Assembly (NCBI RefSeq): GCF_026427355.1 | Contig: NZ_CP102664.1 | Span: forward strand, 310,001 to 374,000 | DNA: 64,000 bases | Origin: Sphingobium sp. JS3065 | GTDB taxonomy: Bacteria > Pseudomonadota > Alphaproteobacteria > Sphingomonadales > Sphingomonadaceae | Reading direction: 5' to 3' | In this document: piece after piece, positions 6,979 to 51,553 of the stretch | Layout of the letters: each line of letters begins with the position of its first letter | Numbering within the stretch: position 1 is the stretch's first letter | Position numbers and translations under genes: made by a program | The notes under the pieces: model-generated | Seen by the model: the letters and a program-made list of their open reading frames with translations, nothing else | Database searches by the model: none | What the model was told of the DNA's origin: nothing

Positions 6979-7157
6979 GGACGCTTCCTCTTCACGGGCT
7001 GGCCTTCGTGGAAGCGCTGGTCGTCGGGCGCCTGCTCCATCAGCAGGGCCGCGACGATGCGGTCGCGATAGTCGACCAGCATCCCGCAGATGACGGCGAG
7101 GGCCAGCCAGAAGCTGCCGAACAGCAGCACGGCGGCGGCGGGCGCTAGGTTGATCAC
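6975..7157 (-). CDS. Small membrane protein
   Basis: 60 aa with one strong transmembrane segment (APAAAVLLFGSFWLALAVIC) and a charged cytoplasmic tail ending in KRKRP. It overlaps its neighbours by four bases at both ends. Function unknown; superinfection exclusion is one possibility for small early membrane proteins but nothing here proves it. Confidence 0.5.
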   Translation of the reverse strand: MINLAPAAAVLLFGSFWLALAVICGMLVDYRDRIVAALLMEQAPDDQRFHEGQPVKRKRP

Positions 7158-7600
7158 GCCGCCGCCTCGGCCGGTGCGGCGATCAGGAGGAAACCGAAGC
7201 CCTTGCGGATGCCGCTGGTGTAGAGCTTACGACCATGCTTGGCGCGGAAGCCGCGATCGGTCAGGCGGCGGGCCAGCGCAGCTTTGTCGATGCCCGGTTC
7301 CCGCTGATAGACGGCGCTGTGCCAGGCGAAGAAATCGGCCCATGTGTCGTCGGCGGTCGTGAAGGCGTCATCGCTGACTGACACGATCCGCGCGGAGGCC
7401 CAAAGGTCGACCGCGTCCTCGGGCGTCGACCATGCGGTCAACTGGTCCAGCGTGACAGTCGCCGTCACCTGCTTGCGGCGGTCGGTCTGGCCGATCACCA
7501 GGCGGGTGCCGTTCGGGTTGACGCGCTGGATGCGCACCTTCGCACCACGGAAGACGGCATAGCTGCCGACATGGGGGAATTCGGTGGGTGTCTGAAGCAT
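7154..7600 (-). CDS. Hypothetical protein with primase-C-terminal-like winged helix
   Basis: 148 aa, first gene of the leftward operon. The C-terminal half (ADFFAWHSAVYQREPG ... LARRLTDRGFRAKHGRKLY) has the shape of the winged-helix segment at the end of P4/D5-type phage primase-helicases, in which a small helical unit is followed by LxxRGF. The N-terminal half is beta-rich (YAVFRGAKVRIQRV). This suggests a free-standing DNA-binding relative of that domain, by inference. An AACGGAGGC ribosome-binding site precedes the ATG. Confidence 0.6.
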   Translation of the reverse strand: MLQTPTEFPHVGSYAVFRGAKVRIQRVNPNGTRLVIGQTDRRKQVTATVTLDQLTAWSTPEDAVDLWASARIVSVSDDAFTTADDTWADFFAWHSAVYQREPGIDKAALARRLTDRGFRAKHGRKLYTSGIRKGFGFLLIAAPAEAAA

Positions 7601-7627
7601 GGGTGCCTCCGTTACTGAACGGAAGCA

Positions 7628-7657
7628 GAATTAGCTAGAACGGCTAAAAAATGTCAA
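7628..7657 (-). promoter_or_regulatory. Putative leftward early promoter
   Basis: Reading on the minus strand, a perfect TTGACA (complement of 7652-7657) lies about 17 bases from an AT-rich TAATTC/CTAATT -10-like element at 7628-7634, just upstream of the leftward operon start at 7600. The -10 region and most of the spacer are covered by operator 7631-7647, so the repressor should shut it off. Confidence 0.55.
7631..7647. promoter_or_regulatory. Operator O1 (17-bp dyad)
   Basis: TTAGCTAGAACGGCTAA, a perfect TTAGC-N7-GCTAA dyad. The same dyad recurs around both sides of the repressor gene. It overlaps the leftward promoter core. Confidence 0.75.
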
Positions 7658-7665
7658 CGGTGAAA

Positions 7666-7682
7666 TTAGCCAAGATAGCTAA
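7666..7682. promoter_or_regulatory. Operator O2 (17-bp dyad)
   Basis: TTAGCCAAGATAGCTAA, a perfect TTAGC-N7-GCTAA dyad. Its centre is 35 bp from that of O1, between the leftward promoter and the rightward SOS-type promoter. Confidence 0.75.
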
Positions 7683-7696
7683 GTTGCTAATCTGCA

Positions 7697-7731
7697 TTGA
7701 CTCTTTCTCAACTTTTGTTCGTATTATGTTC
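7697..7731 (+). promoter_or_regulatory. SOS-type promoter: LexA box over the -10
   Basis: A TTGACT -35-like element (7697-7702) is followed after 19 bases by TATTAT (7722-7727). The -10 is embedded in GTTC-GTATTAT-GTTC (7717-7731), an exact match to the alphaproteobacterial LexA consensus GTTC-N7-GTTC. It points to the 74-aa gene at 7752. LexA bound here would block the -10, so transcription should rise after DNA damage. Confidence 0.72.
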
Positions 7732-7751
7732 TCCGGAAAGGAGAGTTGGGG

Positions 7752-7976
7752 ATGGGTTATCCAGCGGCTATTGAACGGTCAATTCGTGTGGCAGAGGGTC
7801 GGAAGGACCCGGTTGGATGGGTCTTCATGGTGCATATGCAGGTGAAGGGGCCGTTGCGATTGACCAAGGAAGAGGCGGTGCAGGACGCGGTCGAAGCAGG
7901 CGAAGCGCGAGTCGACTTTCAATATGGTCAGGTCTTCATGGAACCGCTGACCTGGATCGCACCGGTCTATCCCTAG
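7752..7976 (+). CDS. Predicted SOS-induced small protein (antirepressor candidate)
   Basis: 74 aa with a strong ribosome-binding site (GGAAAGGAGAG) ahead of ATG 7752. No family recognised: a compact alpha/beta protein with PVGWVFMVHMQVKGPLRLTKEE and a terminal aromatic stretch. It lies alone between the two early operons, faces the repressor gene and overlaps its stop by four bases. Its promoter carries a LexA box, not a repressor operator. By analogy with the LexA-controlled antirepressors of phage 186 (Tum) and Salmonella prophages, it may inactivate the repressor at 7973-8587; this is inference. Confidence 0.7.
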   Translation: MGYPAAIERSIRVAEGRKDPVGWVFMVHMQVKGPLRLTKEEAVQDAVEAGEARVDFQYGQVFMEPLTWIAPVYP

Positions 7977-8587
7977 AAAAAGTCGACGTGCATTCCGATG
8001 ATTCGCCCGATCGTCACCAGCGGTTCCTGGCCGAGCAGGATTTCCTTGTGCTTCGGGTTCGATGAAAGCGGCGCGAGGCGCGGGGGATTGTCCAGATACT
8101 GTTTGAAGGTCACTTCCCCGTCATTCTGCTTCATCATCGCATAGAGCTTTTCATGCCGTAGCTCGATGTCGTCGGGGTCGCAGAAAACTACGGCATCATC
8201 GTGCTTGAGCACCTTGTCCATGCTGTCGCCCTCGGGCTTCAGCGCAAAGGTGTTCGGGCCGCCCGACGTGCAGGGAATGAGGTCCGTCGCGTCCTCTACC
8301 GCGAGTCGCCAATCGCCCTGCGGTATCTTTCCGACCAGCGGCACGCGCCGAACCGGCGTGCGCGGAACGGTGGCGCCGACCAGATCGTCGGGATGAACGC
8401 TCAGCGCTTCGGCGATGGCGATTCGCCAGTCCGTCTTGAGCGCGCGCTTGCCCGTCTCCAGTTTCTGGATCGTGGCAAGGTCGGTTGGAAAACCCGTTGT
8501 TGGGTTCGTTGTCAGCGCGCCGAGCTGCTCCAGCGTCAGACCCTTACGCCTGCGAATTTCCCGGATCATATTGGGTTCAGCGGTCAT
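7973..8587 (-). CDS. CI/LexA-type prophage repressor (XRE HTH + S24 domain)
   Basis: 204 aa. An N-terminal helix-turn-helix (MIREIRRRKGLTLEQLGALT...TIQKLETGKRALK) is joined to an S24 peptidase-like domain with Ser122 (EGDSMDKV) and Lys162 (VTFKQYL). The expected Ala-Gly cleavage bond is replaced by Gln90-Gly91 in VGKIPQGDW, so RecA-stimulated self-cleavage may be lost or altered. It should bind the TTAGC-N7-GCTAA operators on both sides and keep the prophage silent. An operator at 8597-8613, directly upstream of the chosen ATG, implies autoregulation. No clear Shine-Dalgarno precedes the start. Confidence 0.9.
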   Translation of the reverse strand: MTAEPNMIREIRRRKGLTLEQLGALTTNPTTGFPTDLATIQKLETGKRALKTDWRIAIAEALSVHPDDLVGATVPRTPVRRVPLVGKIPQGDWRLAVEDATDLIPCTSGGPNTFALKPEGDSMDKVLKHDDAVVFCDPDDIELRHEKLYAMMKQNDGEVTFKQYLDNPPRLAPLSSNPKHKEILLGQEPLVTIGRIIGMHVDFF

Positions 8588-8596
8588 AATTGAGCC

Positions 8597-8613
8597 ATAG
8601 CCGATCCGGCTAA
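8597..8613. promoter_or_regulatory. Operator O3 (near repressor start)
   Basis: ATAGCCGATCCGGCTAA, matching TTAGC-N7-GCTAA at nine of ten defined positions, ten bases upstream of the repressor ATG. It probably mediates autoregulation. Confidence 0.6.
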
Positions 8614-8630
8614 ATGCGTCTTGGCTGGCC

Positions 8631-8647
8631 TTAGCTAATTTAGCTTG
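8631..8647. promoter_or_regulatory. Operator O4 (imperfect)
   Basis: TTAGCTAATTTAGCTTG: left half perfect, right half GCTTG in place of GCTAA. It abuts the -35 of the rightward early promoter. Confidence 0.6.
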
Positions 8648-8674
8648 ACGGCTTTTAGCTGTTGTAGCTAAAAA
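8645..8674 (+). promoter_or_regulatory. Rightward early promoter, predicted leaderless
   Basis: TTGACG (8645-8650), an 18-base spacer, then TAAAAA (8669-8674). The expected transcription start coincides with the ATG at 8681, which has no Shine-Dalgarno. The Cro-like transcript is therefore probably leaderless. Operators O4 and O5 cover both promoter elements. Confidence 0.6.
8655..8671. promoter_or_regulatory. Operator O5 (17-bp dyad)
   Basis: TTAGCTGTTGTAGCTAA, a perfect dyad within the spacer and -10 of the rightward early promoter, ending ten bases before the Cro-like start codon. Confidence 0.75.
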
Positions 8675-8680
8675 TGCGGC

Positions 8681-8962
8681 ATGACGCTGCAAGACTATCT
8701 CGTGCGGGAAGGGCTTAGCTACACCGCTTTCGCCGCGCTGATCGGGGCCAGGTTCCCGAGCACCGCAGAGCGCTATGCCAAGGGGCTCGTGATCCCCGGT
8801 CGCGCCATGATGACCAGAATCTTCTGGGTGACGAATCGCGAGGTGACGCCCAACGACTTCTACGGTCTTCATCCGCTGGAGGATAAGGTCGAGGCTGCCA
8901 CTGCGTCATCTCATAGTGACGCCGCCGATATGAGCGGCGCCGACCTGGGAGCCGCAGCATGA
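8681..8962 (+). CDS. Cro-like HTH protein
   Basis: 93 aa, divergent from the repressor. The segment TLQDYLVREGLSYTAFAALIGARFPSTAERYAKG fits a short XRE/Cro-type helix-turn-helix; IPGRAMMTRIFWVTNREVTPNDFY resembles the family's C-terminal helix, and an acidic tail follows. It is the first gene of the rightward early operon and should act as the Cro-type counter-repressor on the same 17-bp operators. Its four-base overlap with the next gene indicates translational coupling. Confidence 0.75.
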   Translation: MTLQDYLVREGLSYTAFAALIGARFPSTAERYAKGLVIPGRAMMTRIFWVTNREVTPNDFYGLHPLEDKVEAATASSHSDAADMSGADLGAAA

Positions 8963-10424: not shown

Positions 10425-10774
10425 CGGGGTCGCTGTCCGACCAAGTCGCGGCGATCCTGTGCCGCATCAAGGGCGTGCATATCTCCGACGAGGATGCGCG
10501 GGACCGGGACAAGCGCCTGATCCGCGACCTGCACCTGGACCAGATCGACCTGATGACGCTGGCACTGGAGATCGAGGACGGCTTCGGCGTCGCGGTCGGT
10601 GATGACGAACTGCTGGCGCTCGTGACGGTCGGTGATCTCCGCGCGCTCATCATCGAGAAGATTTCTGACTTTTCTGCCGGGGCCCCACTTACCCCACCCG
10701 GCACGGCGGGAGCCGCCCTTCGGGTCGCATCGGCTCCCGCCGACCCCCTCTTTCCGAACGGAGCATCGGCATGA
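10421..10774 (+). CDS. Acyl-carrier-protein-like protein lacking the phosphopantetheine serine
   Basis: 117 aa. Residues 5-80 follow the four-helix acyl carrier pattern: DQVAAIL...RLIRDLHLDQIDLMTLALEIEDGFGVAVGDDELLALVTVGDLRALI, comparable with ACP L.(D)SLD..EL...E..F...I.D.......TV.D....I. The serine that carries 4'-phosphopantetheine in DSL is Gln41 here (D40-Q41-I42-D43), so it cannot be a conventional holo-ACP. A ~34-residue Pro/Ala tail follows. Role unknown: a decoy, a binding partner or a structural adaptor. It overlaps both neighbours by four bases. Confidence 0.66.
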   Translation: MTGSLSDQVAAILCRIKGVHISDEDARDRDKRLIRDLHLDQIDLMTLALEIEDGFGVAVGDDELLALVTVGDLRALIIEKISDFSAGAPLTPPGTAGAALRVASAPADPLFPNGASA

Positions 10775-12801
10775 ACGCACTTGGCATCATCGTCGACAAC
10801 TTTGCGGGCGGGGGCGGTGCGTCAACCGGGATCGAGGCTGCGCTGGGCCGCTCAGTGGACCTCGCCATCAACCATGATGAGCAAGCCATCCGCATGCATG
10901 AGGCCAACCACCCCGGCACGCGCCATATCCGCAACAACATCTGGCAGATCGACCCGCGCGAGGTCACCGCCGGTCGCCATGTCCAGCTTGCCTGGTTTAG
11001 TCCCGACTGCAAGCATTTCAGCAAGGCGAAGGGCGGCAAGCCGCGCGAGAAGTCCATCCGCGATCTCGCATGGGTCGTCGTTCTCTGGGCGCAGCGGGTG
11101 AAGCCTGATGTGATCCTGCTGGAGAATGTCGAGGAGTTCCGGACTTGGGGACCGCTGGACGGAGAAGGCCAGCCGATCAAGGAACGGGCCGGGGAGACGT
11201 TCGACAAGTGGCAGCGCGAACTGCGGAAGGCCGGATACAAAATCCAGTGGAAGGAACTGCGCGCCTGCGACTATGGGGCCCCGACCATTCGCAAGCGCTT
11301 CTTCATGATCGCCCGCGCCGATGGCAAGCCCATTGTCTGGCCCGCGCCGACCCATGGCAAGCCAGACTCCGCCGAAGTGAAAAGCGGCAAGCTGAAGCCG
11401 TGGCGCACGGCGGCCGAGATTATCGACTGGTCCATTCCCTGCCCGTCGATTTTCGACCGCAAGAAGCCGCTGGCTGAAAAGACCCTGCGCCGGATCGCGC
11501 ACGGCATCATGAAGTTCGTCGTCAACAATCCGGCACCGTTCATCGTGCCGCTCACCCATTACGGCAGCGACATGCGGTCCTATGGCCTGTCCGACCCCCT
11601 CCATACCGTGACGGGCGCGAACCGAGGTGAAATGGCGCTGGTATCGCCTTATTTCGCCCGCACAGCCCATGGCGACATGGATCGAAACGGCAAGCGTCGC
11701 GGGCAGCCGTGCCATGGTCCGGAAGATCCTTTCCCGACCGTCACCCAATCGGGCGATAGCGCGCTGATCGTGCCACATATCACGAAGTTCCGCGCTGGAG
11801 CGATCGGCCACGGCGTGGACGAACCGCTGCATACGGTCACCGCCAACAGCTTTGTGAAGCGCCCCGGCGGCTCGGCTCCGCTGGGCGTGGTCGCGGCAGC
11901 TATCGCGCCCTTCGCTACCTATGCGCAGCAAGGTGGCGGCAATCGATCGGTGGACGATCCGCATCATACCGTCACGGCGTCAAACAAGGATCAGAACTGC
12001 GTCGTGCAGGCGGTCATGTCACCCGCAATCGTCGGCTGCGGTGGGCGCCGCGGTCAAAGCGGGCCAGTTGGACCGCTACAGCCGTTCCCTACCGTCACCA
12101 CGAAAGCCGATGCCTGCGCCGTTACCGCGTTCATGCAGAAATTTGCGGAGAACGGCAAAGGTGTCGATCCGACCGAACCACTGCACACGGTGATGGCGGG
12201 CGCGCCGCGGCATGCCGTCGTTTGCGCGCACCTGGAGCAAGCGAACGGTGGGCCGAACAACGAGAACCTTGCCGGGCGAGCGGCAGATGATCCTCTCTCG
12301 ACCGTGGCGACGTCCGGATCGCAGCAGCGTCTCGTAACGTCGAACCTGATCAAGCTGCGCGGGACCAGCGACCAGCATGTCGAGAATAGCGGCGCAGCGG
12401 TAGAGGAACCCCTGGGCACGATCAGCGCGGGCGGCATTCACGCTGCGGAGGTCCGCGCGTTCCTCATCAAATATTATGGCAATGAACAGGACGGCCACGG
12501 GCTTTCCAGCCCTCTCGGCACCGTCACGGTTCAGGACCGCTTCGGTCTGGTCACAGTCATGGTCGAAGGCGAAGAATATGTGATCGTTGACATCGGCATG
12601 CGGATGCTGACGCCGCGCGAACTGTTCAACGCGCAGGGCTTCCCGCCCGATTACATCATCGAGCAGGACGCGCAGGGCCTGCCCATCACCAAATCAGCCC
12701 AGGTCGCCAAGTGCGGCAACAGCGTCTGCCCGCCCATCGCCGAAGCCTTGGTCCGCGCGCAGTTCCCGGCAATAGCTGCCGCCGCTCAGGTGGCAGCATG
12801 A
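10771..12801 (+). CDS. C5 cytosine DNA methyltransferase with repeat-rich target domain
   Basis: 676 aa. Motif I is VDNFAGGGGASTGIEAALG; motif IV is WFSPDCKHFS with catalytic Cys80 in an SPDC rather than PC context; motif VI is LLENVEEF (Glu118-Asn119-Val120). The C-terminal motifs include MLTPRELFNAQGFPPDYII and KCGNSVCPPIAEAL. Between about residues 270 and 590 lies a degenerate repeat whose unit contains P(L/F/H)xTVT, counted nine times. It probably methylates cytosine to protect phage DNA from host restriction. It overlaps the next gene by four bases. Confidence 0.92.
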   Translation: MNALGIIVDNFAGGGGASTGIEAALGRSVDLAINHDEQAIRMHEANHPGTRHIRNNIWQIDPREVTAGRHVQLAWFSPDCKHFSKAKGGKPREKSIRDLAWVVVLWAQRVKPDVILLENVEEFRTWGPLDGEGQPIKERAGETFDKWQRELRKAGYKIQWKELRACDYGAPTIRKRFFMIARADGKPIVWPAPTHGKPDSAEVKSGKLKPWRTAAEIIDWSIPCPSIFDRKKPLAEKTLRRIAHGIMKFVVNNPAPFIVPLTHYGSDMRSYGLSDPLHTVTGANRGEMALVSPYFARTAHGDMDRNGKRRGQPCHGPEDPFPTVTQSGDSALIVPHITKFRAGAIGHGVDEPLHTVTANSFVKRPGGSAPLGVVAAAIAPFATYAQQGGGNRSVDDPHHTVTASNKDQNCVVQAVMSPAIVGCGGRRGQSGPVGPLQPFPTVTTKADACAVTAFMQKFAENGKGVDPTEPLHTVMAGAPRHAVVCAHLEQANGGPNNENLAGRAADDPLSTVATSGSQQRLVTSNLIKLRGTSDQHVENSGAAVEEPLGTISAGGIHAAEVRAFLIKYYGNEQDGHGLSSPLGTVTVQDRFGLVTVMVEGEEYVIVDIGMRMLTPRELFNAQGFPPDYIIEQDAQGLPITKSAQVAKCGNSVCPPIAEALVRAQFPAIAAAAQVAA

Positions 12802-22581: not shown

Positions 22582-23187
22582 ATGGGCATGGCTGAGCAAC
22601 CGCAGGAACTGATCGTCAATCTGGAAGAGTTCGCTGACCTGTGCGGCGTGACGGGCGAGACGATGCGCGCGCACCTGAAGGTCGTTGAAGGCGAGCCGGC
22701 ATGGTTGCTGGAGCGGGGCGACCGTGGGCGCGGATACAAGATCGAAGCGCGCGGGGGCGTGGCGTGGTGGCGGGCCAAGCGGGATGAAGAGGAACAGCAG
22801 AGTGCTGAGCGGCGTGCCCAGCTCGCGCAATTGCGCCTCGACCTGGTTGGCGATCAGATCGAACAGCCGGCGCAGCTTGGCATGTCGGGCAAGCAGCGGC
22901 GCGAGGAGTACGCTGCCGGCGAAGCCGCGCTCAAATATCGCAAGATGATGGGCGATCTCATCGACCGAAACGAAATGGTTCATGAGTTGTCATCGGCAGC
23001 AGCGACCCTTCGCCGTCGCCTGCTGCAAGTCCCCGGCGAATTCGCGATACGGGAAGGACTGTCTCCGCAGAGCGTCACACCTCTGGAGGGCATGTTGGGG
23101 CGCGCCGTCGATGATTTTCTACGCGCCATTGCCGAAGGAACGAAGATCGAGATAATTGCAGCAGGGGATTCCGAAGCCGATGCTTGA
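22582..23187 (+). CDS. Terminase small subunit (Nu1-like, DUF1441)
   Basis: 201 aa. The N-terminal winged-helix/MerR-like segment (NLEEFADLCGVTGETMRAHLKVVEGEPAWLLERG) recognises the packaging site in this family. A helical middle (EEEQQSAERRAQLAQLRLDLVGDQIE) and the DUF1441-type C-terminus (RRRLLQVPGEFAIREGLSPQSVTPLEGMLGRAV) follow. ATG 22588 is an alternative start. It overlaps the large subunit gene by eight bases, the usual pairing. Confidence 0.85.
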   Translation: MGMAEQPQELIVNLEEFADLCGVTGETMRAHLKVVEGEPAWLLERGDRGRGYKIEARGGVAWWRAKRDEEEQQSAERRAQLAQLRLDLVGDQIEQPAQLGMSGKQRREEYAAGEAALKYRKMMGDLIDRNEMVHELSSAAATLRRRLLQVPGEFAIREGLSPQSVTPLEGMLGRAVDDFLRAIAEGTKIEIIAAGDSEADA

Positions 23188-25321
23188 AGCCGCGTTACCG
23201 CCTCCATCGCTTGCCGACGCCCGCGCGGTGCTGGCGAATGCACTGGAGGCGCTACGCTTTCCCGAAAAGGTCTCGATCTCCGAAGCTGCGCGCCGGCACC
23301 GTGTCCTGATGAACCCCGGCGCCTATTCCGGCCCATGGGATGAGAGCCCGCATGACATGCGTTGCCTCGACCGCCCTATGGACTGCCTGCACGGCGATTC
23401 TCCGTACAGTGTCGTGGGCGTCATGGGGCCGAGCCAGACGGGCAAGTCGGAGATCGGCAATAACTGGCAGCTTCACACCGTCCTTTATGACCAGGCCGAT
23501 CTGCTGTTCGTGGCGCCGACGCGCGACCTGACCAATGTCTATGTGACGACGCAGTTCGACAAGATGCTGGACTTAGCCGTTTATACCGATGGCAAGGCGG
23601 GAATATTGCGCGACCGCCAGCTCGGCGGCGTGTCGGCGGACAATATCAATCTCAAGCGCTTCCTGGGCTGCGACTTCCATTTCCTCTGGCCTGGCGGTCC
23701 CACCTTCCGCGCCAAGCCGTTCCCCCGCGGACGCATGGACGACTATGATGAGTTCGCGAAGGACGTTGCCGATCAAGGTAGCGCGCTGGGCTTGATGGAA
23801 GGCCGCATGGGCAGCTTCGCGGCCTACGGTCGAACGAAGATCTACGCCAACTCAAGCCCGATGCTGGGCCGGACCAAGGGGATCGAGGCGCTGGTCGCCA
23901 GCGGAACAGATGAGCGCTGGTATGTCGATTGTCTCGAATGTTCGACCCCGTTCCGCCTGAGCTTCGATCACCTGGACTATGACAAGACTGGCACACCGGA
24001 GGATGCCGCCGCGAGCGCTGCAGTTATGTGCCTCGAATGTGGCGGCGTCCACCGTCAGTCCGAAAAGCGCATGATCATGTCGACGGGGCGCTGGGTCGGA
24101 CGTGGTGAGCGCGCGGTGTCATTGCGCGAAAGCAATATCGGCAAAATCGGCGAGCTGATCCGAACCGATCGCGCCACCTTCCGCCTGGAAGGATTGATGG
24201 GCTTCCGTCCTTGGGCGCAAATCGCAAAGCTGGCGCGGGAGGCTGAAATCGCCTTTGCGATCGAGCAGGATCCTGCGCCGCTGGTGTCGTTCGACAATAC
24301 CATCATCGGCCGCAACTATGTGCCGCGCGAAGACGGCGAGCCAGCGGTGACAGAGGATGCGCTCTACACGCGGGCGCGCAACAGCTATTACCGCATGGGC
24401 GAGGTCCCGCCTGGCGTCCTGTGTCTGATCGCCACGATTGACCAGCAAGGCAACCGCTTCGAGGTTGCGGTGTGGGGCTTCGGCGCGGGCTTTCGTTGCT
24501 GGCTGATCGACCGCTTTGCCGTGTTGACGACCATGGACAATGGGCGGGAGCGCCCGTTGAAGCCGTTCAATCGGCCGGAGGACTGGTCCGTTCTTCATGC
24601 TCGTGTGCTGTCTCGCAGCTATCCCATGGCGGGCGCGCCGCACCTTCGGATGAAGATCATGAACACCTCGGTCGACACGGGCGGCATGGATGGCGCGACC
24701 GACAACGCCTTTGCCTGGTGGCATGCGATGGTCTCCGGTGATGTCGGCTCCGGACGCCCGCCACTGCCGGCGACGGCCATCACTCTTCTCAAAGGTGGCA
24801 ATAATCCCAAGGGCCGACTGCTGCCGCCGCCGACGGTTGATGCCAAGCGCCAGATCAAGGGCGCCCCTCAAGCCGAGCTGTTCATGCCCAATGTCAACCG
24901 ATACAAGGACATTGCCGATGTCAGGCTGAAACGCAGCGACGAAGGGCCCGGTTACATCGCCTTTCCGAACAATCTTCCCCAGGCCGATGACGGGTCGTTC
25001 CCCTATCTGGCGGAACTGCGCGCCGAACATAACGTCAACGGTCAGTGGGTCCGCGAGCCGCATCGCGCAAACGAGACATGGGACCTTTACATTCAGGCCT
25101 GCGCCGTCGTCACGCGCTTCGGCGGGAATGACGCCAGCTTCGCCTGGGTGCCGGTTTGGGCGCGTCCGCCCAAGGATGCGCCACGCCAACTGACGCCGGA
25201 ACCGCAACCCGATGCGGAGGATATTGGCGCCGAAACAGCGCCGCCGCGGCCACCAGCCCCAGCGCGCGCGGCATCGCGCATGCAACGTCCACGGCGATCC
25301 GTCAGGGTGTCGCGAGGCTAA
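23180..25321 (+). CDS. Terminase large subunit (lambda gpA family)
   Basis: 713 aa. The ATPase domain has Walker A GVMGPSQTGKSEI and the gpA-family blocks LLFVAPTRDLTNVYV, DDYDEFAKDV, AYGRTKIYANSSPMLGRTKGIE and a zinc-like CLECSTPF...CLECGG segment. The C-terminal nuclease half includes CLIATIDQQGNRFEVAVWGF and NTSVDTGGMDGATDNAF. It translocates DNA into the prohead and cuts at the packaging site. The gpA lineage with a Nu1-like partner suggests cos-type ends. Confidence 0.94.
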   Translation: MLEAALPPPSLADARAVLANALEALRFPEKVSISEAARRHRVLMNPGAYSGPWDESPHDMRCLDRPMDCLHGDSPYSVVGVMGPSQTGKSEIGNNWQLHTVLYDQADLLFVAPTRDLTNVYVTTQFDKMLDLAVYTDGKAGILRDRQLGGVSADNINLKRFLGCDFHFLWPGGPTFRAKPFPRGRMDDYDEFAKDVADQGSALGLMEGRMGSFAAYGRTKIYANSSPMLGRTKGIEALVASGTDERWYVDCLECSTPFRLSFDHLDYDKTGTPEDAAASAAVMCLECGGVHRQSEKRMIMSTGRWVGRGERAVSLRESNIGKIGELIRTDRATFRLEGLMGFRPWAQIAKLAREAEIAFAIEQDPAPLVSFDNTIIGRNYVPREDGEPAVTEDALYTRARNSYYRMGEVPPGVLCLIATIDQQGNRFEVAVWGFGAGFRCWLIDRFAVLTTMDNGRERPLKPFNRPEDWSVLHARVLSRSYPMAGAPHLRMKIMNTSVDTGGMDGATDNAFAWWHAMVSGDVGSGRPPLPATAITLLKGGNNPKGRLLPPPTVDAKRQIKGAPQAELFMPNVNRYKDIADVRLKRSDEGPGYIAFPNNLPQADDGSFPYLAELRAEHNVNGQWVREPHRANETWDLYIQACAVVTRFGGNDASFAWVPVWARPPKDAPRQLTPEPQPDAEDIGAETAPPRPPAPARAASRMQRPRRSVRVSRG

Positions 25322-26164: not shown

Positions 26165-27856
26165 ATGGATGTCCGCATGAACCTGGTCGACCGCGTGGTA
26201 GCGGCGGTTTCGCCGGAGCGGGGCGCGCGGCGCATGGTGATGCGTGCGGCGCTCTCTGCCGGGACCATGATGGCCAGCGGCTCGCCCGTTGCGCCGGGTG
26301 GCAAGGTAACGGGGCAGGGCGGCTATTATGGCGGCCAGACCAATCGGCGGCAGACGCAGGGGTGGCGCGCCCGCTTGCGCACGCCGAATCAGGATGCGGC
26401 CAAGCGCGATGACCTGATCGCCCGTTCGCGCGAATCAGCGATGAACATGCCGCTGGCGACGGCGGCGATCGAGCGCCCGATCGACTTCACGGTCGGTTCG
26501 GGCCTGATGGCAATTCCTGAGATTGTCGCGAGCGAAGTCGGACTGAACGATGAAGCCGCCGCTGCGCTCAATCGGCAGCTCGCCAAGGACTATGACGACT
26601 ATATGTCGTCCACCGATCCCGACGCGGAGCGGGGGGCGACCGGATACGGCCTGCAGGAAATCGTCATGCGCGGTGTGCTGGAATCCGGCGACATCGCCGC
26701 GTTCCGATGCTGGGCCGATGACCAGGCGGGCCGGAATCACTTCACGGCGTGGAAGCTCGTCGAGGCGGATTGGATCGTCTCTCCGCACGGCCATATTGAA
26801 GGGACGGCGCTAAACGGGACCGGCAATATCGTATCCGATGGCGTCGAGGTCGATGGGTACAACGCCCCTATCGCCGTGCATGTGCTGAGGAAGGCACCCG
26901 ACGGCGCTTCCGCGGGCCGGTTCAACCGGCGGAGCGGGGATACGGTGCGGGTGCCCTTGTGGGGCGAGAGAAGCGGTCTTCCCACCGTCGTTCTGGTGAA
27001 GTCGAAGCGGCGACCGGGGCAGACGCGGGGCATTCCCGTCCTCGCTCCGGTGATCGAAATCCTGCGTCAGGTGTCGGACCTGACGGAAGCGGAGCTGTTC
27101 GCGGCGGTCATGACCGCGATGCTGGCGATCGTCTACAAGTCGCCTGGGGCATCCTCCATGCCCGAAGTCGACTATGGCGACGAGGAAGGAAATGGACGGC
27201 TTGACGGTCTCGACATGCCGAGGAAGCCGCAAAGCAATATTCGCATGGAGGCAGGGCAAGTCCTGGAGATCGACACCGACTCCGAAGTCGATGTCAAATC
27301 GCCGGGGCGGCCGAACCCTGCGTTCGATCCCTTCTTTCTCGGCATGGTCCGCCAGTTGTCGGCCGCGACCAAGGTGCCCTATGAAATCCTGCTGCTGCAC
27401 TTCACAGCCAGCTATTCGGCAAGCCGGGGGGCGCTGGAGACCTTCTACGTTTCCTACGTCTTCCCGAAGCGAGAATGGCTCGCATCGCTGTGGTGCAACA
27501 TCAATTATCAGGTCTGGCTGTACGAGCAGGTGGCGCGTGGCGTCTACCGGATGCCCGGCTTCCTGACGAACCCGAAGCGCCGTGCCGCATGGTCGCGGGT
27601 GCGCCATCGGGGCGACGGCAAGATTTCGCTGAACCCTGCGCAGGAAGCCAAGGCGCTGGAGGTCTATGAGGCGCATGGCTGGTCGACGGGTGCGCAGATC
27701 ACTGCCGGGCTCAACGGCGGCGATTATGATTCGAACATCACGACGCGGATTGCCGAGCACAAGCGCTTCGTCGACGGCGGCCTGCCCATTCCGAACGCGA
27801 AGGGCGGCGGCAGCGATACGGGCGCCGGCGGTGTCGATCCTGGAAGGGAAGGGTGA
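26165..27856 (+). CDS. Portal protein (lambda gpB family)
   Basis: 563 aa. The N-terminal RRQTQGWRARLRTPNQDAAKRDDLIARSRESAMNMPLATAAIERPIDFTVG is typical of lambda-type portals. The core includes GDIAAFRCWADDQAG, RGIPVLAPVIEILRQVSDLTEAELFAAVMTAM and the conserved VPYEILLLHFTASYSASRGALET. It forms the ring through which DNA enters and leaves the capsid. Confidence 0.94.
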   Translation: MDVRMNLVDRVVAAVSPERGARRMVMRAALSAGTMMASGSPVAPGGKVTGQGGYYGGQTNRRQTQGWRARLRTPNQDAAKRDDLIARSRESAMNMPLATAAIERPIDFTVGSGLMAIPEIVASEVGLNDEAAAALNRQLAKDYDDYMSSTDPDAERGATGYGLQEIVMRGVLESGDIAAFRCWADDQAGRNHFTAWKLVEADWIVSPHGHIEGTALNGTGNIVSDGVEVDGYNAPIAVHVLRKAPDGASAGRFNRRSGDTVRVPLWGERSGLPTVVLVKSKRRPGQTRGIPVLAPVIEILRQVSDLTEAELFAAVMTAMLAIVYKSPGASSMPEVDYGDEEGNGRLDGLDMPRKPQSNIRMEAGQVLEIDTDSEVDVKSPGRPNPAFDPFFLGMVRQLSAATKVPYEILLLHFTASYSASRGALETFYVSYVFPKREWLASLWCNINYQVWLYEQVARGVYRMPGFLTNPKRRAAWSRVRHRGDGKISLNPAQEAKALEVYEAHGWSTGAQITAGLNGGDYDSNITTRIAEHKRFVDGGLPIPNAKGGGSDTGAGGVDPGREG

Positions 27857-27858
27857 AC

Positions 27859-29256
27859 ATGAGTATGCGTAGTTGGTCGCGCGCCTCCATCATCACGCGC
27901 CTCTTCGGCACGCCGCTGGCAGTGCTGCCCGAGACAGCGGCAATCGTTCTGGGTGCGGTCGGTCCCAGGCTGGACGTATCGCAATTGTTCGTCAACGCGA
28001 CTGGCGATGCTCTGGGTATCGACGAACTCTCGGCGCGTGCAAAGGCGGAAGTGGAACGGATCGATGCCCGCGGTCCCGTCGACCGCGTCGCACCGCTGAA
28101 CCGCGCTAATCGGTTGGGCTTCATCTACAACAGGGTCATGCACGTTCCCATTCGTGGGGAGACGGTGGCTGAGAACGATGGTGCAATTGGTCCGTCGTCG
28201 GGTTTCACCGGCTATGACGGGATCCGCGCCCAGGTGATTGCAGCGGACAATGATCCCGAGGTGGCCGGCCTCCTGATGGACATCGACTGTCCCGGCGGCG
28301 AATGCGCGAGCCTGTTTGAGCTTGCCGACTTCCTAATGGCGCGGCGTGGGACCAAGCCGATGCGGGCGATGATCCGCGATCTTGGTGCATCTGCTGCTTA
28401 CACCATCGCGTGCTGCGCCGACGACGTGACATTGCAGCCGCTGGGCCGTGCCGGCTCTAATGGCATCATCACCATGCACGCCGACTTTTCCGGCGCCATG
28501 GAGCAGGACGGCGTTGCGGTGCGCCTGTTCACCAGCGGGTCGCACAAGGCGGACGGCAATCCGTTCGAGCCATTGCCCGACGAGGTCGCAGCGCGAATCC
28601 AGAAAGCGGTCGATGTGACGGCGGCCAGGTTGTTCGCGCATGTCGGCAAGGCGAGGGGCATGAAGCCGGAGGCAATCGCGGCACAGCAGGCCCAGATTTA
28701 CATGGGCGAGGAGGCGGTTGCCGCTGGTCTCGTCGACAAGATCATGAGCTGGGACGACTCCATGGCGGAGTTCGAGCAGCGCGTGAATGGCAGCGGGAAT
28801 TCCGGACGTGCTGCCCGTCCCGCGCCCGGTGCGCGATCAACGAAAGGAAGCACCATGGACCCGAACGCGCAAGCACCGGCGGGTAACGAGCCGGTCTATA
28901 CCGAAGCGCAGATGAGCGCCGCCAAAATGGAGGCGTCGCAGGCCGCCGCCACTGCGGCCGCCACGGCGGAGCGGGAACGCATCACGGCCTTGGCCGAACT
29001 GGATAGCGACAGCACGCTTTCCGCTTCGCTGACCAAGGCGATCAGTGAGGGCGTCAGCGCCGGCGATTATGCCATTGGCCTCGCCCGCGAGAACAAGGCG
29101 GCGGTCGCCACGGCGGCCGAAGCGGCGAAGGCCGATGCGGCCAAGGCCGGTGAACTGCCCGCGGGTGGTCGCGCCGAAACCAAGCCCAATCGTGGCCAGG
29201 CGGCGGTCGATCGCCTTCGCGGCAAGATTCCCGGCCTGCCCGGCAAGGTGGGCTGA
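27859..29256 (+). CDS. S49 (SppA/ClpP-fold) capsid maturation protease with C-terminal scaffold
   Basis: 465 aa. The S49 Ser/Lys dyad sits in DLGASAAYTIACCADDV (nucleophilic Ser in GASAAY) and SHKADGNPFEPLPDE (Lys), as in lambda gpC. After residue ~320 the protein becomes Ala/Glu-rich and helical, the scaffold part. Expected role: prohead assembly with processing of capsid components. The start with GGGAAGGG upstream was chosen over GTG 27853. An in-frame second start at 28855 gives a separate scaffold. Confidence 0.92.
   Translation: MSMRSWSRASIITRLFGTPLAVLPETAAIVLGAVGPRLDVSQLFVNATGDALGIDELSARAKAEVERIDARGPVDRVAPLNRANRLGFIYNRVMHVPIRGETVAENDGAIGPSSGFTGYDGIRAQVIAADNDPEVAGLLMDIDCPGGECASLFELADFLMARRGTKPMRAMIRDLGASAAYTIACCADDVTLQPLGRAGSNGIITMHADFSGAMEQDGVAVRLFTSGSHKADGNPFEPLPDEVAARIQKAVDVTAARLFAHVGKARGMKPEAIAAQQAQIYMGEEAVAAGLVDKIMSWDDSMAEFEQRVNGSGNSGRAARPAPGARSTKGSTMDPNAQAPAGNEPVYTEAQMSAAKMEASQAAATAAATAERERITALAELDSDSTLSASLTKAISEGVSAGDYAIGLARENKAAVATAAEAAKADAAKAGELPAGGRAETKPNRGQAAVDRLRGKIPGLPGKVG
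28855..29256 (+). CDS. Nested in-frame scaffold protein (lambda Nu3-like)
   Basis: 133 aa from ATG 28855, in frame with the protease and preceded by a strong Shine-Dalgarno, CGAAAGGAAGCACC. It contains the helical, Ala/Glu/Lys-rich scaffold region (TEAQMSAAKMEASQAAATAA ... NRGQAAVDRLRGKIPGLPG) without the protease dyad. The arrangement mirrors C/Nu3 in lambda: free scaffold is made in excess over the protease-scaffold fusion. Confidence 0.75.
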   Translation: MDPNAQAPAGNEPVYTEAQMSAAKMEASQAAATAAATAERERITALAELDSDSTLSASLTKAISEGVSAGDYAIGLARENKAAVATAAEAAKADAAKAGELPAGGRAETKPNRGQAAVDRLRGKIPGLPGKVG

Positions 29257-29296
29257 GGCAACCATCATCGGGCGAAAGCCCATCGTTCCATTGATC

Positions 29297-29320
29297 GGGC
29301 GGTTCCCTCCGGGGCCGCCC
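29297..29320. repeat. GC-rich hairpin between protease and decoration genes
   Basis: GGGCGG (29297-29302) pairs with CCGCCC (29315-29320), with inner CC/GG pairs. There is no T-tract, so it is more likely an RNA-processing or stability hairpin than a terminator. Confidence 0.4.
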
Positions 29321-29345
29321 GTATTCGTGAAGGAAGGATTTTCCC

Positions 29346-30014
29346 ATGGCTTACGAACAGGCCGGTTACACTCAGGAAACCCCGTACAATCCGAAGCATC
29401 TGCTTGCTTCGGGCAAGTACACCACGCGCAAGGTGACGATCCTTTCCGGCCAGAACCTGGTCGCGGGTGCGGTGATTGGCGCGATCCTGCTCGGTTCGGT
29501 CACCGTCACGCCCGGCGCTGCCGTGTCCGCAACGCCGGCGGGCACGCCGGGCAACGGTTCGATCGGCACCGTCACCTCGGATGCTGGCGCCCCCGAGGGC
29601 ACCTATTTGCTCGTCATCATCGAACCGGCAGCCAATGGAGGCACGTTCGAGGTGATCAAGCCCGACGGTTCTCTCGATGGCACCGGGGTAGTGGGTCAGG
29701 CCTATAACGGCTCCATCAACTTCACCCTGGCCGACGGTGGAACCGACTTCGTTGCCGGTGATCGTATCCCCATCGTCGTCGATTACGCCGCCGGTTCGGG
29801 CAAGTACAAGCTGTCGCTCGCGGCAGCGGTCGACGGGTCGGAAACGCCTGACCTGATCCTGTCCTATGATGTCGACGCCAGCGACGGCGATGTCGAGGCC
29901 ATCGCTTATGAAACCGGCAATTTCGCCAGCACCGCGCTGACGCTGGGTACCGGCCACACGATCGACAGCATCCGCGCCGGGCTGCGCGACAAGGGCATCA
30001 CCATCGACGGCTGA
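29346..30014 (+). CDS. Head decoration protein (lambda gpD-like with extra beta domain)
   Basis: 222 aa, about twice lambda gpD. The N-terminal strand and short helix (YTQETPYNPKHLLASGKYTTRKVTILSGQNLVAGAVIG) and the terminal FASTALTLGTGHTIDSIRAGLRDKGITIDG match gpD-type decoration proteins. An inserted Gly/Thr/Val-rich beta domain (about residues 57-175) accounts for the extra length. It binds the capsid surface as trimers. Good RBS (GAAGGAAGG). Confidence 0.88.
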   Translation: MAYEQAGYTQETPYNPKHLLASGKYTTRKVTILSGQNLVAGAVIGAILLGSVTVTPGAAVSATPAGTPGNGSIGTVTSDAGAPEGTYLLVIIEPAANGGTFEVIKPDGSLDGTGVVGQAYNGSINFTLADGGTDFVAGDRIPIVVDYAAGSGKYKLSLAAAVDGSETPDLILSYDVDASDGDVEAIAYETGNFASTALTLGTGHTIDSIRAGLRDKGITIDG

Positions 30015-30051
30015 CGCCGTCCTTCCCCGTCAACAGGCCCCATGGGTCGCA

Positions 30052-30086
30052 CCCCGGTTCCATTCGGAGCCGGGGTTTCATTTTTT
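30052..30086 (+). terminator. Intrinsic terminator between decoration and capsid genes
   Basis: A 10-bp stem (CCCCGGTTCC / GGAGCCGGGG, one G-U pair) with loop ATTC is followed by TTTCATTTTTT. It probably makes the protease-scaffold-decoration transcript partly end here, with read-through into the capsid gene or a separate capsid promoter. Confidence 0.8.
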
Positions 30087-30100
30087 CGAAAGGTAGTGAC

Positions 30101-31135
30101 ATGGCCGATCATCTCTACGGCACCGAAGAGCTGCTGCCCATGGTGGACTCGCTGTTCATCCCTGGCAACTTCCTGATGAAGGCGGTTTTCCCCGGCATGA
30201 TGGAGTTCGACACCGAACAGGTGTCGTTCGACCGCGTGCTGGACGACCTGCGCATGGCGCCCCTCGTTTCGCCCTATTCGCCGGGCGAGGTCCAGCAGCC
30301 CCGCGGCTATCAGAAGGAATCGATCGTTCCGGCCTACGTGAAGCCGCGCAACCCGGTGCCCGCGAACCAGGTCATGAAGCGTCTCGCCGGCGAGAGGCCG
30401 TGGGGCGAGCTGAGCGCCAGCGAGCGTCGCGATCTGATCGTGCTGAACCTGCTCAACGGTCATCGCACGAAGATCGATCGCCGCTGCGAATGGATGGCGG
30501 CGAGCATCATCCGCACCGGATCGCTCGTGCTGGTCGGCAATAAATATCCGGCTGTGACCGTGAACTTCCAGCGGGCGGCGGCCCTGACCAAGCAGCTCCT
30601 GACCACCGATCGCTGGGGCGAGGACGGTGTTTCGCCCTATGATGATGTCGACGGCTGGATCGACGAAGTGGGCGAGGAAAGCGGCGCTGCCGTCAACCTG
30701 ATCGTCATGGACAAGGATGCGTGGAAACTCTACATCGCGGATCCCAAGGCGCAGAAGGCGCTCGACAAGACGCTGGGCCAGACCAGCGTTGCCTATGAGC
30801 TGGGCTTGACCGTCCAGTTGCCCGGCTCTCCCGTGTTCAAGGGCCGTGACGGCAATGTCGAGTTCTATGTCTACAACGACACCTATGAGGACGATGAGGG
30901 CAGCATTGCCAAGCTGCTGCCCCAATATAGCGTCTGCCTGATCAGCCAGGGCGGCGTCCAGGGCACCATGGCCTACGGCTTGGTCCAGGATGCGCTCAAC
31001 AATTTCGAGAAGGGCGCCTATTTCTCGAAAAACTGGATCGACATGGACTCGGGTGCCGAGCTGCTCGAAAGCGCCTCCGCGCCTATCCCCGTGCCGGGTC
31101 GTATCAACGCGACCTGCTACGTCAAGGTCCGCTGA
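30101..31135 (+). CDS. Major capsid protein (lambda gpE family)
   Basis: 344 aa. HK97-fold family E: N-terminal ELLPMVDSLFIPGNFLMKAVFPGMMEFDTEQVSFD, then LVSPYSPGEVQQPRGYQKESIVPAYVKPRNPV, and the C-terminal ISQGGVQGTMAYGLVQD...AKLLPQYSVC segment. It forms the capsid shell with the decoration protein. Insulated on both sides by strong terminators, consistent with tuning of the most abundant virion protein. Confidence 0.95.
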   Translation: MADHLYGTEELLPMVDSLFIPGNFLMKAVFPGMMEFDTEQVSFDRVLDDLRMAPLVSPYSPGEVQQPRGYQKESIVPAYVKPRNPVPANQVMKRLAGERPWGELSASERRDLIVLNLLNGHRTKIDRRCEWMAASIIRTGSLVLVGNKYPAVTVNFQRAAALTKQLLTTDRWGEDGVSPYDDVDGWIDEVGEESGAAVNLIVMDKDAWKLYIADPKAQKALDKTLGQTSVAYELGLTVQLPGSPVFKGRDGNVEFYVYNDTYEDDEGSIAKLLPQYSVCLISQGGVQGTMAYGLVQDALNNFEKGAYFSKNWIDMDSGAELLESASAPIPVPGRINATCYVKVR

Positions 31136-39943: not shown

Positions 39944-40395
39944 TGGTCACCAGAGCGGAAATCGTGGCGGAAGCGCGGCGTTGGATCGGGACGCCCTATC
40001 ATGAGCAGGCGAGCGTCCGGGGTCGCGGTTGCGACTGCAAGGGGCTGGTGGTCGGCGTCGCGCGGGCCTGCGGATTGCCCGAGGCAGAGGGATTCCATGC
40101 CTGTCTCGCCAATTATGGCCCGCGCGTGGACGTCGCGCTGTTGCGGCGTGGACTTGAAAGCGAGCTGAGGCAGGTCGCCATTCCGCGCCCGGGCGATGTG
40201 CTGCTGCTGCGCGTCCGCGGGAAGCCCCAGCATTTGGGTTTGATGGTCGAGGGCGGTCGAATGGTTCATTGTTGGGGCGCGGGAATGCAACAGGTCGTTT
40301 CGGCTGCCTGGACCGTGGGCAGGGCGCAGCGGGAACTGGATTCGGCGTGGGCTTTCCCCTCGCTGCTAGCCGCCGAGGAGGCTGTGTATGGCTGA
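39943..40395 (+). CDS. NlpC/P60 family tail peptidase (GTA gp14-like)
   Basis: 150 aa. ARRWIGTPYHEQASVRGRGCDCKGLVVGVARA carries the NlpC/P60 Cys (GCDCKG, where DCSG is more usual) and HLGLMVEGGRMVH the His. It is expected to locally cut peptidoglycan during DNA entry. The strong GGGAGGGG ribosome-binding site and the eight-base overlap with the hub gene fit the GTA-like tip module. Confidence 0.92.
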   Translation: MVTRAEIVAEARRWIGTPYHEQASVRGRGCDCKGLVVGVARACGLPEAEGFHACLANYGPRVDVALLRRGLESELRQVAIPRPGDVLLLRVRGKPQHLGLMVEGGRMVHCWGAGMQQVVSAAWTVGRAQRELDSAWAFPSLLAAEEAVYG

Positions 40396-43300
40396 TCCGG
40401 TCTCGCTGGGTTTCACCCTTGTCCTCACGGCGGGGCAGATGGGCCTTCAGGCTTCTCGAAAGATCGAAGGTCCGCGTCTCGACGACCGGACCGTCAGCCT
40501 TGGCGATCCGGGGGACAGTAAGAATTATTTTCTGGGAACGCGCCGGTTCGAAAGTTGCAGCTTTCTATTCGCGGAAGACCTGCATGAGGTGAAGAAGAGG
40601 CGGAAGACCAAGGGGGGCAAATATACCGAGTATAAATATTACGGCACTTGGGCAAACCACATTGCCGATCATCCTATCGACGGGGTGACCCGCATCTGGC
40701 TCGACAAGCATCTGGTGTTCGATGTCACCGGCGCTGGACCGATCATGCCTTTCGTTTCGTCACGTACTGCCTTTGCGGTTGGTGGGCAGGCAACGGTCAA
40801 CAATCCCTATTTCACCTTCTATCTTGGCGGGGAGGACCAGGAGCCGGACCCTCGCATGTTGCAAACCGTAGAGGCGCTTCACGGTGAGGGCAGTTGTCCC
40901 GCCTATCGCGGGCAGGCGATGGTGGTGCTGAAGGACATCCCGCTGGAGAAGTTCGGCAATCGACTGCCACAGCCGACGATTGAGGCGACCTGCAATCCCG
41001 TGCCCGCCTATCCATGGGAAACCTTCGAGGTTTCGGTTCCCGGTAACCGCTTGTGGGGATTTACCTATTCACCTGATCGCTCGATCATGATGTGGGCGCA
41101 GGATTCCTCATTCGAATTGTGGGATGTGGCGGCAAGGGCGCGGATGATCGCGGGAACCCTGGCGGTCGACGTCGGCGTGCAGGATGTGTTCGGGGTCACG
41201 AACAACGGCGCCGTGTACGCGCTGAGCGGCGGCAGCATCGTCGCCTTCAATCCTGACTTCGCCGGCGTGGCCACGGTCGGTGCTGCGCCTTTCCAGGATG
41301 GATTGAGGGTCCTTCAGGACGGCAATGGCGGCGAGCATGTGGTCACCATGGGATCCGCCTTTATTTCCTACTTCTTCACCTGCTCGATCAGCGGGGTGGG
41401 CGGCGTCGTGACAATTTCCACGCCGTCGATCGGTGACGGCAGTTCCTGGACGACGCGGGGGGCCTGCACTGACAGCTATGGAGACATCTGGGTGGTCGGC
41501 AGCAGGGCTGGTTTCTTCGGAAGCTGGGACGATCTGTTTCTTTACCGGGTCGTGGATAGCGGTGCGCGACCAGGTTCGCTTGGCTTCGCGCACCTCAATG
41601 TCGGCGCCTTCGCCAATGGCGCGCCAGCGGAAATCGCGCACTATGACGGGCATTTCATCGTTCACTGGAACAATGCCCTGCTGGTCAAGATTGAAGACGA
41701 GACCCTGACTATCGTGGATTCGGTTGCCCGCGGCGGCGATCCCTACAACACCCCGAAGCAATGGGCTAACCTGTTCCCCGGCTCGCCCACGATCTGGCTG
41801 AACGGCGCGGAGGTTTCCCTTTCAACCTTGCAGGTCGTCCGTACCGTCACATTTGCCGATTGGAAGGCGGAGGATGCGGATGGGGTCATCTATGATCCAT
41901 TGAACCATGCCCTTATCTGCTTCCCGCAGTTCTCTCTGGTGATCACCTGGCGCTATCTGGACCGAATCAACGGTGATGGCGTGACGATTGCGGCCTGCAT
42001 CGACATGGTCAGCGGAATGGCAGATGCCGGATCTGACGATTACAACGCCGCGCTGTGCACCGACACGATCGATGGGTTCAGTTTCACGGCAGGGGTGGCG
42101 AAGTCCATCCTTTCGCCGCTGCTGGAGGCGCATGACATCGATCCCGTCTCGGAAGACTTCATCGTTCGGTTCCGTCCCCGGAGCGGGACGGTCGAGGGTG
42201 ACGTTCCGTCGGGAAAGATCGTACCAACGGGGGAATCCCGGTTTGCCGTCAACCAGGCGAAGGATGAGGATCTGCCGTTGCAGGTCACCATGACCTTTGC
42301 TGATGTCGACAAGGATCAGCAGGATAATCTCGCCGTCTCGGCCCGCGCCGCCGACGCGGTGAGGACGAAGCGGATCACGCCGATCGACATGCGGAACATG
42401 GCAACCGATGCGGATAACGCCCGCCATTTGGTCGACCGCTTCATGCGGCGGCAGCATGCGGAAAAGGAAAGCTACGACCTTTCCCTGTCAGACAGGTTTC
42501 GCAGGATCACGCCGGGAAGCGTCTATACGCTCAATCTCGACGATCTGACTCGGATCGGTCGTTGCGTCTCCACCCGCATCGGCGCCGACCGCGTGACCGA
42601 GACCCGATGGGTCCGCGACAATCCATCTCTGGCCGGCCGCAGCGCTGGCCGAGGGGCGGCGCTGGATTCGCGCACGGCCGAGCGCATCCAGGTGCCCTCG
42701 ATTTCCAAAGGCTTCATCCTCGACGTGCCGCTGCCCACCGATGCGGCGGACGATCCGACGCCCTTCATGCTGGTGGCAGCCGCGCCCTATTCCTCCGGCG
42801 TCTTCTGGACCGGCGCAACCGTCTATGTCAGCGACACCGGCGACGAGGACGAATATGAGCCGGACTGGGCTTATATCTCCTACCAGAGCGCGGCGACCTG
42901 GGGCTACTGCAACGGTTCGCTGGGAGATGCGCTGCCATGGGTGCCGGACAACGGCAACAGCGTGAACGTCGCCGTTCAGAACGGCCTGCTGACCAGCGTC
43001 ACCATGGATCAACTGTTGAACGATGCGACGCTCAACCTCGCGCTGATCGGCTCCGAATATGTCCAGTTCGCGACCGCTACGCTGGAGGGGGACGGAACCT
43101 ACACGCTCTCCGGCTTCCTCCGGGGGCGCCGGGGGACGGAACAGCAGATCGGAACGCAGCTCGCAGGCGCGCCTTTCCTGCTGATCGACACGGCGTTGGT
43201 CAAAAAGACGATGGGCGCGTCGGAGATTGGCGACACCGACTATTACAAGACGGTTAGTCAGGGGCGCGAGGAGGAAACGGCGCGGGCGGAATGGCGCACC

Positions 43301-49068: not shown

Positions 49069-49083
49069 GAACGTATGAAGAAC
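49069..49083 (-). promoter_or_regulatory. LexA (SOS) box upstream of the terminal operon
   Basis: On the minus strand GTTC-TTCATAC-GTTC, exactly GTTC-N7-GTTC, 18 bp from the ATG at 49051. A TTGACC -35-like element (49096-49101) lies 17 bases from TCATAC inside the box, so LexA would cover the -10. Confidence 0.75.
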
Positions 49084-49201: not shown

Positions 49202-49372
49202 TTCCGGAAGCTTCCACAGACTTCCGGATTCTTCCGGAAAATCGCAGAATTCCTAGGGGTTGCGGGTGATTCGCGTCCATGTGCAGCCGAGCGCTTCCGC
49301 ATGCAGCCAGATTTGGCGTGGGGGTATTTTGGGGGTATTTTCTCGGGGTACGCAAATGGAGCGATACCCCCA
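49202..49372. repeat. Repeats upstream of the tyrosine integrase
   Basis: TTCCGGA occurs three times (49202, 49222 and 49232), and GGGGGTATTTT is repeated in tandem (49320-49341) with an inverted ATACCCCC copy at 49365-49372. They are good candidates for integrase arm-type or excisionase sites beside the attachment core. Confidence 0.5.
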
Positions 49373-51522: not shown

Positions 51523-51553
51523 CGTCGATTCCTTCTCTAGCCGAATCGCGTGA

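Follow-up and report, generated by a model that had tools for sequence, protein, structure and literature searches.

How might a temperate phage take its cue from DNA damage when its repressor lacks the usual self-cleavage bond? The question is raised by an immunity region in a 64,000-nucleotide stretch of Sphingobium sp. JS3065 (contig NZ_CP102664.1, positions 310,001 to 374,000), hereafter the window, a 64-kb part of the 5.1-Mb genome that carries a temperate phage. The immunity region holds a small gene for a 74-amino-acid (aa) protein and, facing it, the gene for a 204-aa S24/LexA-like phage repressor. Based on a LexA box laid over the promoter of the small gene, and on the recurrence of box, small gene and repressor in related loci, we consider it likely, at a probability of about 0.66, that the small gene encodes a LexA-controlled antirepressor, which would be the SOS input of the phage switch.

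The small open reading frame (ORF) runs on the forward strand from an ATG at 7752 to a TAG at 7974-7976 (7752..7976), preceded by a Shine-Dalgarno-like AAAGGAG (7737..7743). Upstream on the same strand are a putative -35 element, TTGACT (7697..7702), and a putative -10 element, TATTAT (7722-7727), the latter inside an exact LexA box, GTTCGTATTATGTTC (7717..7731, forward strand), which starts 35 bp before the start codon. This box was found once in the 5.1-Mb genome, is kept at the same place in relatives and follows the alphaproteobacterial LexA motif, GTTC-N7-GTTC (PMC7987155). Occupancy of this site by LexA should block RNA polymerase, and by sequence the small gene has the host-type LexA box over its promoter that is expected of a LexA-controlled phage antirepressor. 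A lone GTTC-N7-GTTC match says little, with three in the window against 1.6 expected. The two further exact boxes of the window lie on the reverse strand at 49069-49083 and at 51554-51568, the second inside a transglycosylase-like ORF (50863-51756). The host has one LexA above the family cut-off, and a GTTC-N7-GTTC box stands 18 bp before lexA. In the host genome the motif occurs 154 times versus 90 times for the reversed pattern, and it was commoner than the reversed control in 6/6 other genomes of the family. The conserved box, together with the host LexA and the like box before lexA, supports the LexA control of the small gene predicted in an earlier note on this DNA. Third codon positions were the commonest site of change in 10/10 pairs of small genes compared (13/10/37 changes by codon position between the window and locus L002), and hence the 74-aa ORF is a real gene; its product is, by this pattern, under purifying selection.

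The repressor gene (7973..8587, reverse strand) lies tail-to-tail with the small gene, and the two stop codons fall within one CTAG (7973-7976). Its product matches PF00717 with 42.5 bits (cut-off 23.3) and phrog_4, transcriptional repressor. In alignments with LexA and relatives, Gln90-Gly91 (codons 8315-8320), Ser122 (8222-8224) and Lys162 (8102-8104), all encoded on the reverse strand, occupy the Ala-Gly, Ser and Lys positions. The protein has the S24 domain and the Ser/Lys dyad of a self-cleaving S24/LexA-like repressor, and carries Gln90-Gly91 in place of the Ala-Gly or Cys-Gly bond. The earlier note had described the retained Ser122 and Lys162, the substituted bond and the convergent 74-aa ORF with its -10 within an exact LexA box; alignments, coordinates and sequence agreed with it on each of these points.

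A LexA box, a convergent small gene and an S24 repressor were found together at 30 loci, or 27 without near-copies. The window locus belongs to this small-protein module of sphingomonad phages by its small-protein profile, its convergent S24 repressor and its LexA box. In a search from the repressor side, which covered the best 80 of at least 184 confirmed viral loci, 16 loci had a box on the repressor-facing strand 225-281 bp past the repressor end, where the other 24 boxes, spread over the 876,529 bp of those loci, would lead one to expect 0.06. The genes that follow these 16 boxes are four small genes from the 74-aa clade and 12 from a divergent one, and at each of the 16 loci the small ORF abuts or overlaps the repressor ORF.

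Searches that made no use of the box yielded 20 repressor-linked small genes. The box is exact and oriented as expected at 17/20, exact in either orientation at 18/20, and has at most one mismatch at 20/20. The 17 comprise 7/7 viral loci, the single locus in genome G012 (1/1), 9/9 family-genome matches near a strong S24 domain, and 0/3 of L057, L065 and L078. At the seven viral loci, for which the small protein was the sole query, an exact box starts 36-38 bp before the start codon and the repressor is tail-to-tail with the small gene (7/7 for each); the seven include near-copies and hold two different box spacer sequences, neither like that of the window. L057, L065 and L078 were found with a model built from the 12 divergent small proteins; at the equivalent place, L065 has an exact box in reverse, and L057 and L078 each have a box with one mismatch.

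Among 397 genomes of the family, small genes of the 74-aa clade occurred in two, namely the window's own and G012, in which a LexA box is present and the small gene and repressor are about 370 bp apart. The divergent-clade model matched 30 places in 23 of the 397 genomes. At nine of these places a strong S24 match lies no more than 1.5 kb away; it is convergent in 9/9, with an exact box just upstream of the small gene in 9/9. A tenth (L164/L194) combines a box with a weak S24 match that is convergent but some way off. The same model matched 0/385 genomes of the class, a sample without any genome known to match. A scan of viral contigs for the exact repressor gave no match, scans of genome contigs with the small-protein alignment and with the repressor relative P0017 gave no relative, and two small-protein queries at E 0.01 matched none of 50,697 phage records of named isolates. 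The named database relatives of small protein and repressor come from Sphingobium and Sphingomonas.

The 74-aa protein had no match in PHROGs, NCBIfam or PADLOC and two sub-threshold matches in Pfam, to DUF6566 (14.5 bits, cut-off 26.7) and to a haem-binding domain (14.5 bits, cut-off 25.2), in line with the earlier note, which had recognised no family for it. Ten of its relatives gave no Pfam match, and 5/10 matched PHROGs, all weakly (E 0.09-0.24). When the 74-aa clade (10 rows) was compared with the divergent clade (12 rows), hhalign gave a probability of 92.9% and an E of 3.7e-7 over 41 columns, and the small proteins appear to be one very divergent family. The divergent clade had 199 protein-database matches at E 0.001, of which the best 120 are listed. 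In the repressor tree the module rows form two sets, each with its own kind of small protein: a well-supported clade of five (the window, L040, L041, L043 and L139) and 22 of the 23 rows of a clade with weaker support (84/97). No publication describing the small-protein family was found by title or abstract start, in a search that left the subscription literature mostly outside.

A wider family of small domains with an FxRPxGPWR-like core was also observed in sphingomonad genomes away from S24 repressors (L155-L175, L191-L196). These domains sometimes have a LexA box near or upstream of them, and sometimes follow another small ORF, apparently in one operon with it. At L194 (genome G276), a LexA-like repressor, a small domain gene, a LexA box and a GANTC (CcrM) site are neighbours of apparent Mu-type transposition genes. 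A GANTC site within 45 bp after the box was seen at 20/29 module loci, with all four middle bases; the window is not among the 20. Such a site follows in 4.6% of random stretches and after 5/29 and 7/14 host-genome boxes, the set of 14 being chosen mostly for AT-rich spacers, and the LexA motif is described as readily overlapping GANTC (PMC7987155). The host also has GcrA. Since GANTC follows host LexA boxes as well, we do not claim it as a module-specific second input.

The cleavage bond was compared across relatives of the repressor. By manual count from the alignment, 22 database relatives comprise 16 with Ala-Gly, five with Gly-Gly and one with Gln-Gly. The last, P0009, is 89% identical to the window's repressor, and among 23 aligned repressors these two are the only ones with Gln at P1. 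The six next nearest repressors (77-81% identical) have Ala-Gly, and Gln90, present in two records, is thus a local change. A wider survey covered 98 of 99 loci, near-copies included (L094 gave no repressor row). In the 30 module loci the bond is Ala-Gly in 19, Gly-Gly in six, Ala-Ser in three, Gln-Gly in one and Ala-Arg in one; in the 68 others it is Ala-Gly in 59, Cys-Gly in six, Asp-Gly in two and Glu-Arg in one. Non-canonical bonds were hence found at 11/30 small-gene loci versus 3/68 others, and at 10/27 versus 2/62 without near-copies (Fisher p 7e-5). The Ser/Lys dyad was present in 30/30 module repressors and in 67/68 others, the exception being L131, which has Ile/Arg at the dyad and Glu-Arg at the bond; the two Asp-Gly repressors (L087 and L092, no module) retain it. 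The earlier note had taken the lost Ala-Gly bond as the mark of the switch. As a mark of single loci this is not supported, given that the same small gene stands beside Ala-Gly repressors at L040, L041, L042 and L139 and that Ala-Gly is found at 19/30 loci; for the group the argument keeps some force, because non-canonical bonds are enriched there.

The switch that we favour would work as follows. In the lysogen, the 204-aa repressor would occupy the left and right operators while host LexA would keep the small gene silent. Upon DNA damage, RecA would become active, host LexA would cleave itself and the small gene would be transcribed; its 74-aa product would then bind the adjacent repressor and take it off the operators, and the early operons would fire. 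LexA occupancy, SOS expression, repressor binding and repressor release are predicted steps of this scheme, drawn from the DNA and its comparisons. RecA-driven cleavage of the repressor has presumably been lost, or is less relied on, in this phage. Because the repressor still looks cleavable in most relatives, the small gene was probably at first added alongside the cleavage route, which may have decayed in this lineage. Recurrent pairing with one kind of target, the logic of the promoter and the decay of the bond in the group together favour antirepression, and the antirepressor role proposed by the earlier note is the most economical reading of the convergent pairing with an S24 repressor.

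Several points weigh against this reading, in which binding of the small protein to its repressor is an inferred step. The spacer between the -35 and -10 elements of the small gene is 19 nucleotides (nt), and a scan of 7500-8800 for consensus promoters with spacers of 16-18 nt found none; TTGACA and TATAAT stand at the equivalent position in L002 and L004 with the same 19-nt spacing. In a loose search for -35 and -10 elements beside the boxes, randomly chosen positions within the locus did at least as well for a good part of 33 loci, and the promoter of the 74-aa clade was clearer than the others. The repressors of small-gene loci have Ala-Gly in 19/30 and Ser/Lys in 30/30, so that cleavage may still work there. 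At 20 of the 30 places matched by the divergent-clade model, no strong S24 match lies within 1.5 kb, and at seven of the 20 the stretch examined lacks an exact box (the other 13 have one near or far); the small domain therefore does not go with a repressor or with LexA in every case. Repressor relatives, counted at E 1e-15, occurred in 17/397 family genomes, with the module in 11 and none in six, and the L127 repressor, the remaining row of the larger clade, lies inside a module clade and has no module. The link between small gene and lost bond was not significant in an independent-pairs test. On the tree, about eight departures from the canonical bond fell in module clades (20.5% of branch length) versus two elsewhere (binomial p 9e-5), in a test that was post hoc, with departures counted by eye and Gly-Gly taken as non-canonical; without Gly-Gly the departures were three versus two (p 0.06). 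Finally, the unbroken dyad is the main fact that antirepression leaves unexplained.

The dyad would be accounted for if the small protein were an SOS-made activator (co-protease) of repressor self-cleavage, which would replace the RecA filament and allow cutting at bonds that are less favoured (Gln-Gly, Gly-Gly or Ala-Ser). We know of no phage co-protease of this kind, and hold the proposal to be quite unlikely. The sensing of SOS would on that account be outsourced to LexA, leaving the repressor free to evolve a bond not triggered by RecA alone, an equally doubtful corollary; if true, a phage-timed two-step proteolytic switch would explain the variable bond and the constant dyad in the 30 loci. 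The dyad is indeed kept in 30/30 though the bond departs from Ala/Cys-Gly in 11/30, and bond and dyad were lost together in the module-less L131 and, by our own reading of its sequence, in the CB repressor of phage N15. Yet the module-less Asp-Gly repressors L087 and L092 keep the dyad too, so its residues may be kept for other reasons, and a large P1 residue abolishes cleavage in the related protein UmuDAb, where A83Y, at the equivalent Ala, is reported as not cleavable (PMC4807011). Cleavage of the repressor by RecA at Gln-Gly in the manner of lambda, with the small gene incidental, would be consistent with the intact S24 domain and Ser/Lys dyad; it is highly improbable given that Gln stands at P1 only in the window and P0009 of the 23 repressors and that the small gene is conserved.

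Two further explanations take the repressor protein out of the picture as a target. The small protein might serve an SOS-induced phage or host-takeover function, or act as a brake on induction, and occupy its slot without targeting the repressor. The wider domain family does occur in other contexts outside the repressor slot, and small phage proteins that prevent repressor cleavage are described (434 Hex). Against this, the pairing recurs in two repressor clades, and the small gene is kept even at loci that have lost the bond, for which a brake on cleavage would serve no purpose; we consider such a function unlikely. Alternatively, the effective agent could be transcription itself: SOS transcripts from the LexA-boxed promoter would enter the repressor gene antisense, at its 3' end, and lower repressor synthesis. 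The shared stop codons would suit this, as would the abutting or overlapping ORFs at the 16 viral loci and a near lack of terminators, one weak terminator-like hairpin (8025-8040) having been found in 7500-8800, below the shuffle mean of 1.8. An antisense effect would not account for a small protein under purifying selection, in a family kept across large divergence, nor for G012 with its genes about 370 bp apart, and seems to us very unlikely.

The layout around the two genes is that of an immunity region, with the small gene between the left operator-like sites and the repressor. The putative operators are 17-bp palindromes, TTAGC-N7-GCTAA. A left pair lies at 7631..7647 and 7666..7682, and a right set at 8597..8613 (one mismatch) and 8655..8671, with a weaker operator-like site at 8631..8647 (two mismatches, a level at which chance matches occur in the window). 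Four of the five are kept at the same places in the relatives L002, L004, L005 and L008, and are good operator candidates for that reason. Beyond the left operators, the first leftward ORF (7154..7600, reverse strand, 148 aa) is a probable early-left gene with no Pfam match and one weak PHROG match (E 0.23). The first rightward ORF (8681..8962, forward strand, 93 aa) is in the Cro position, and relatives of it stand beside the repressor in several loci. Elsewhere in the window, the phage has a serine integrase (866-2500), a terminase (23156-25321), portal, head protease and major head protein genes (26165-31135) and a tail protein (40388-43648). Two DNA methyltransferase-like genes lie in the early region, of which that at 15664-17088 matches PF01555 and that at 10771-12801 is so named from the look of its sequence alone. 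In addition to the serine integrase, a phage integrase match (phrog_1) at 49301-50626, beyond the tail genes, possibly marks a second element.

To our knowledge, the known LexA-controlled antirepressors were worked out in enterobacterial phages. The earlier note had compared the locus to Tum of phage 186, and the likeness holds for the promoter logic: the annotation of the 186 record gives Tum a dedicated SOS promoter whose -10 is covered by a putative LexA site, and describes Tum as inhibiting DNA binding by CI, the role predicted here. It does not extend to sequence or gene order. Unlike the small protein, Tum has 146 aa and a full-length match to a DinI-family PHROG, and its gene belongs to a separate operon about 6 kb away from cI. 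The two gave no BLASTP alignment and an hhalign probability of 0.1% (divergent-clade profile), which places the small protein outside the Tum family.

The control logic is also that of the Gifsy proteins GfoA, GfhA and GftA, described as small repressor-binding proteins under LexA control that trigger prophage induction, with the LexA-antirepressor logic proven for GftA and GfoA; their target repressors are in the 150-aa range and without bipartite structure (PMC3121763). The window's gene, by contrast, lies inside the immunity region and faces a repressor with an S24 domain and intact Ser/Lys, and gene position and repressor domain set it apart from the GfoA/GftA system. In phage N15, AntC is named as a LexA-controlled antirepressor (PMC3121763), and CB matches phrog_4, the same repressor PHROG as the window's repressor. 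CB differs in having lost, as read from its sequence, both dyad and Ala-Gly, whereas the dyad is kept in 30/30 here, and AntC is likened by description only. In the TF-smORF modules of linear plasmid-like phages (e.g. smORF72), a small protein is reported to inactivate the cI repressor without proteolysis (PMC10432266); there a phage transcription factor is described as driving the smORF independently of SOS, whereas LexA would be the sensor here. Set beside these systems, the sphingomonad-phage proteins look like a separate family, unnamed in the libraries searched, that faces a repressor with a protease dyad. Because the small gene pairs with Ala-Gly, Gly-Gly, Ala-Ser, Ala-Arg and Gln-Gly repressors, its loci would form a natural series in which to study a move from RecA-driven cleavage to antirepression, and the combination of box, small gene and repressor offers a sequence signature by which SOS-inducible prophages may be predicted in sphingomonads.
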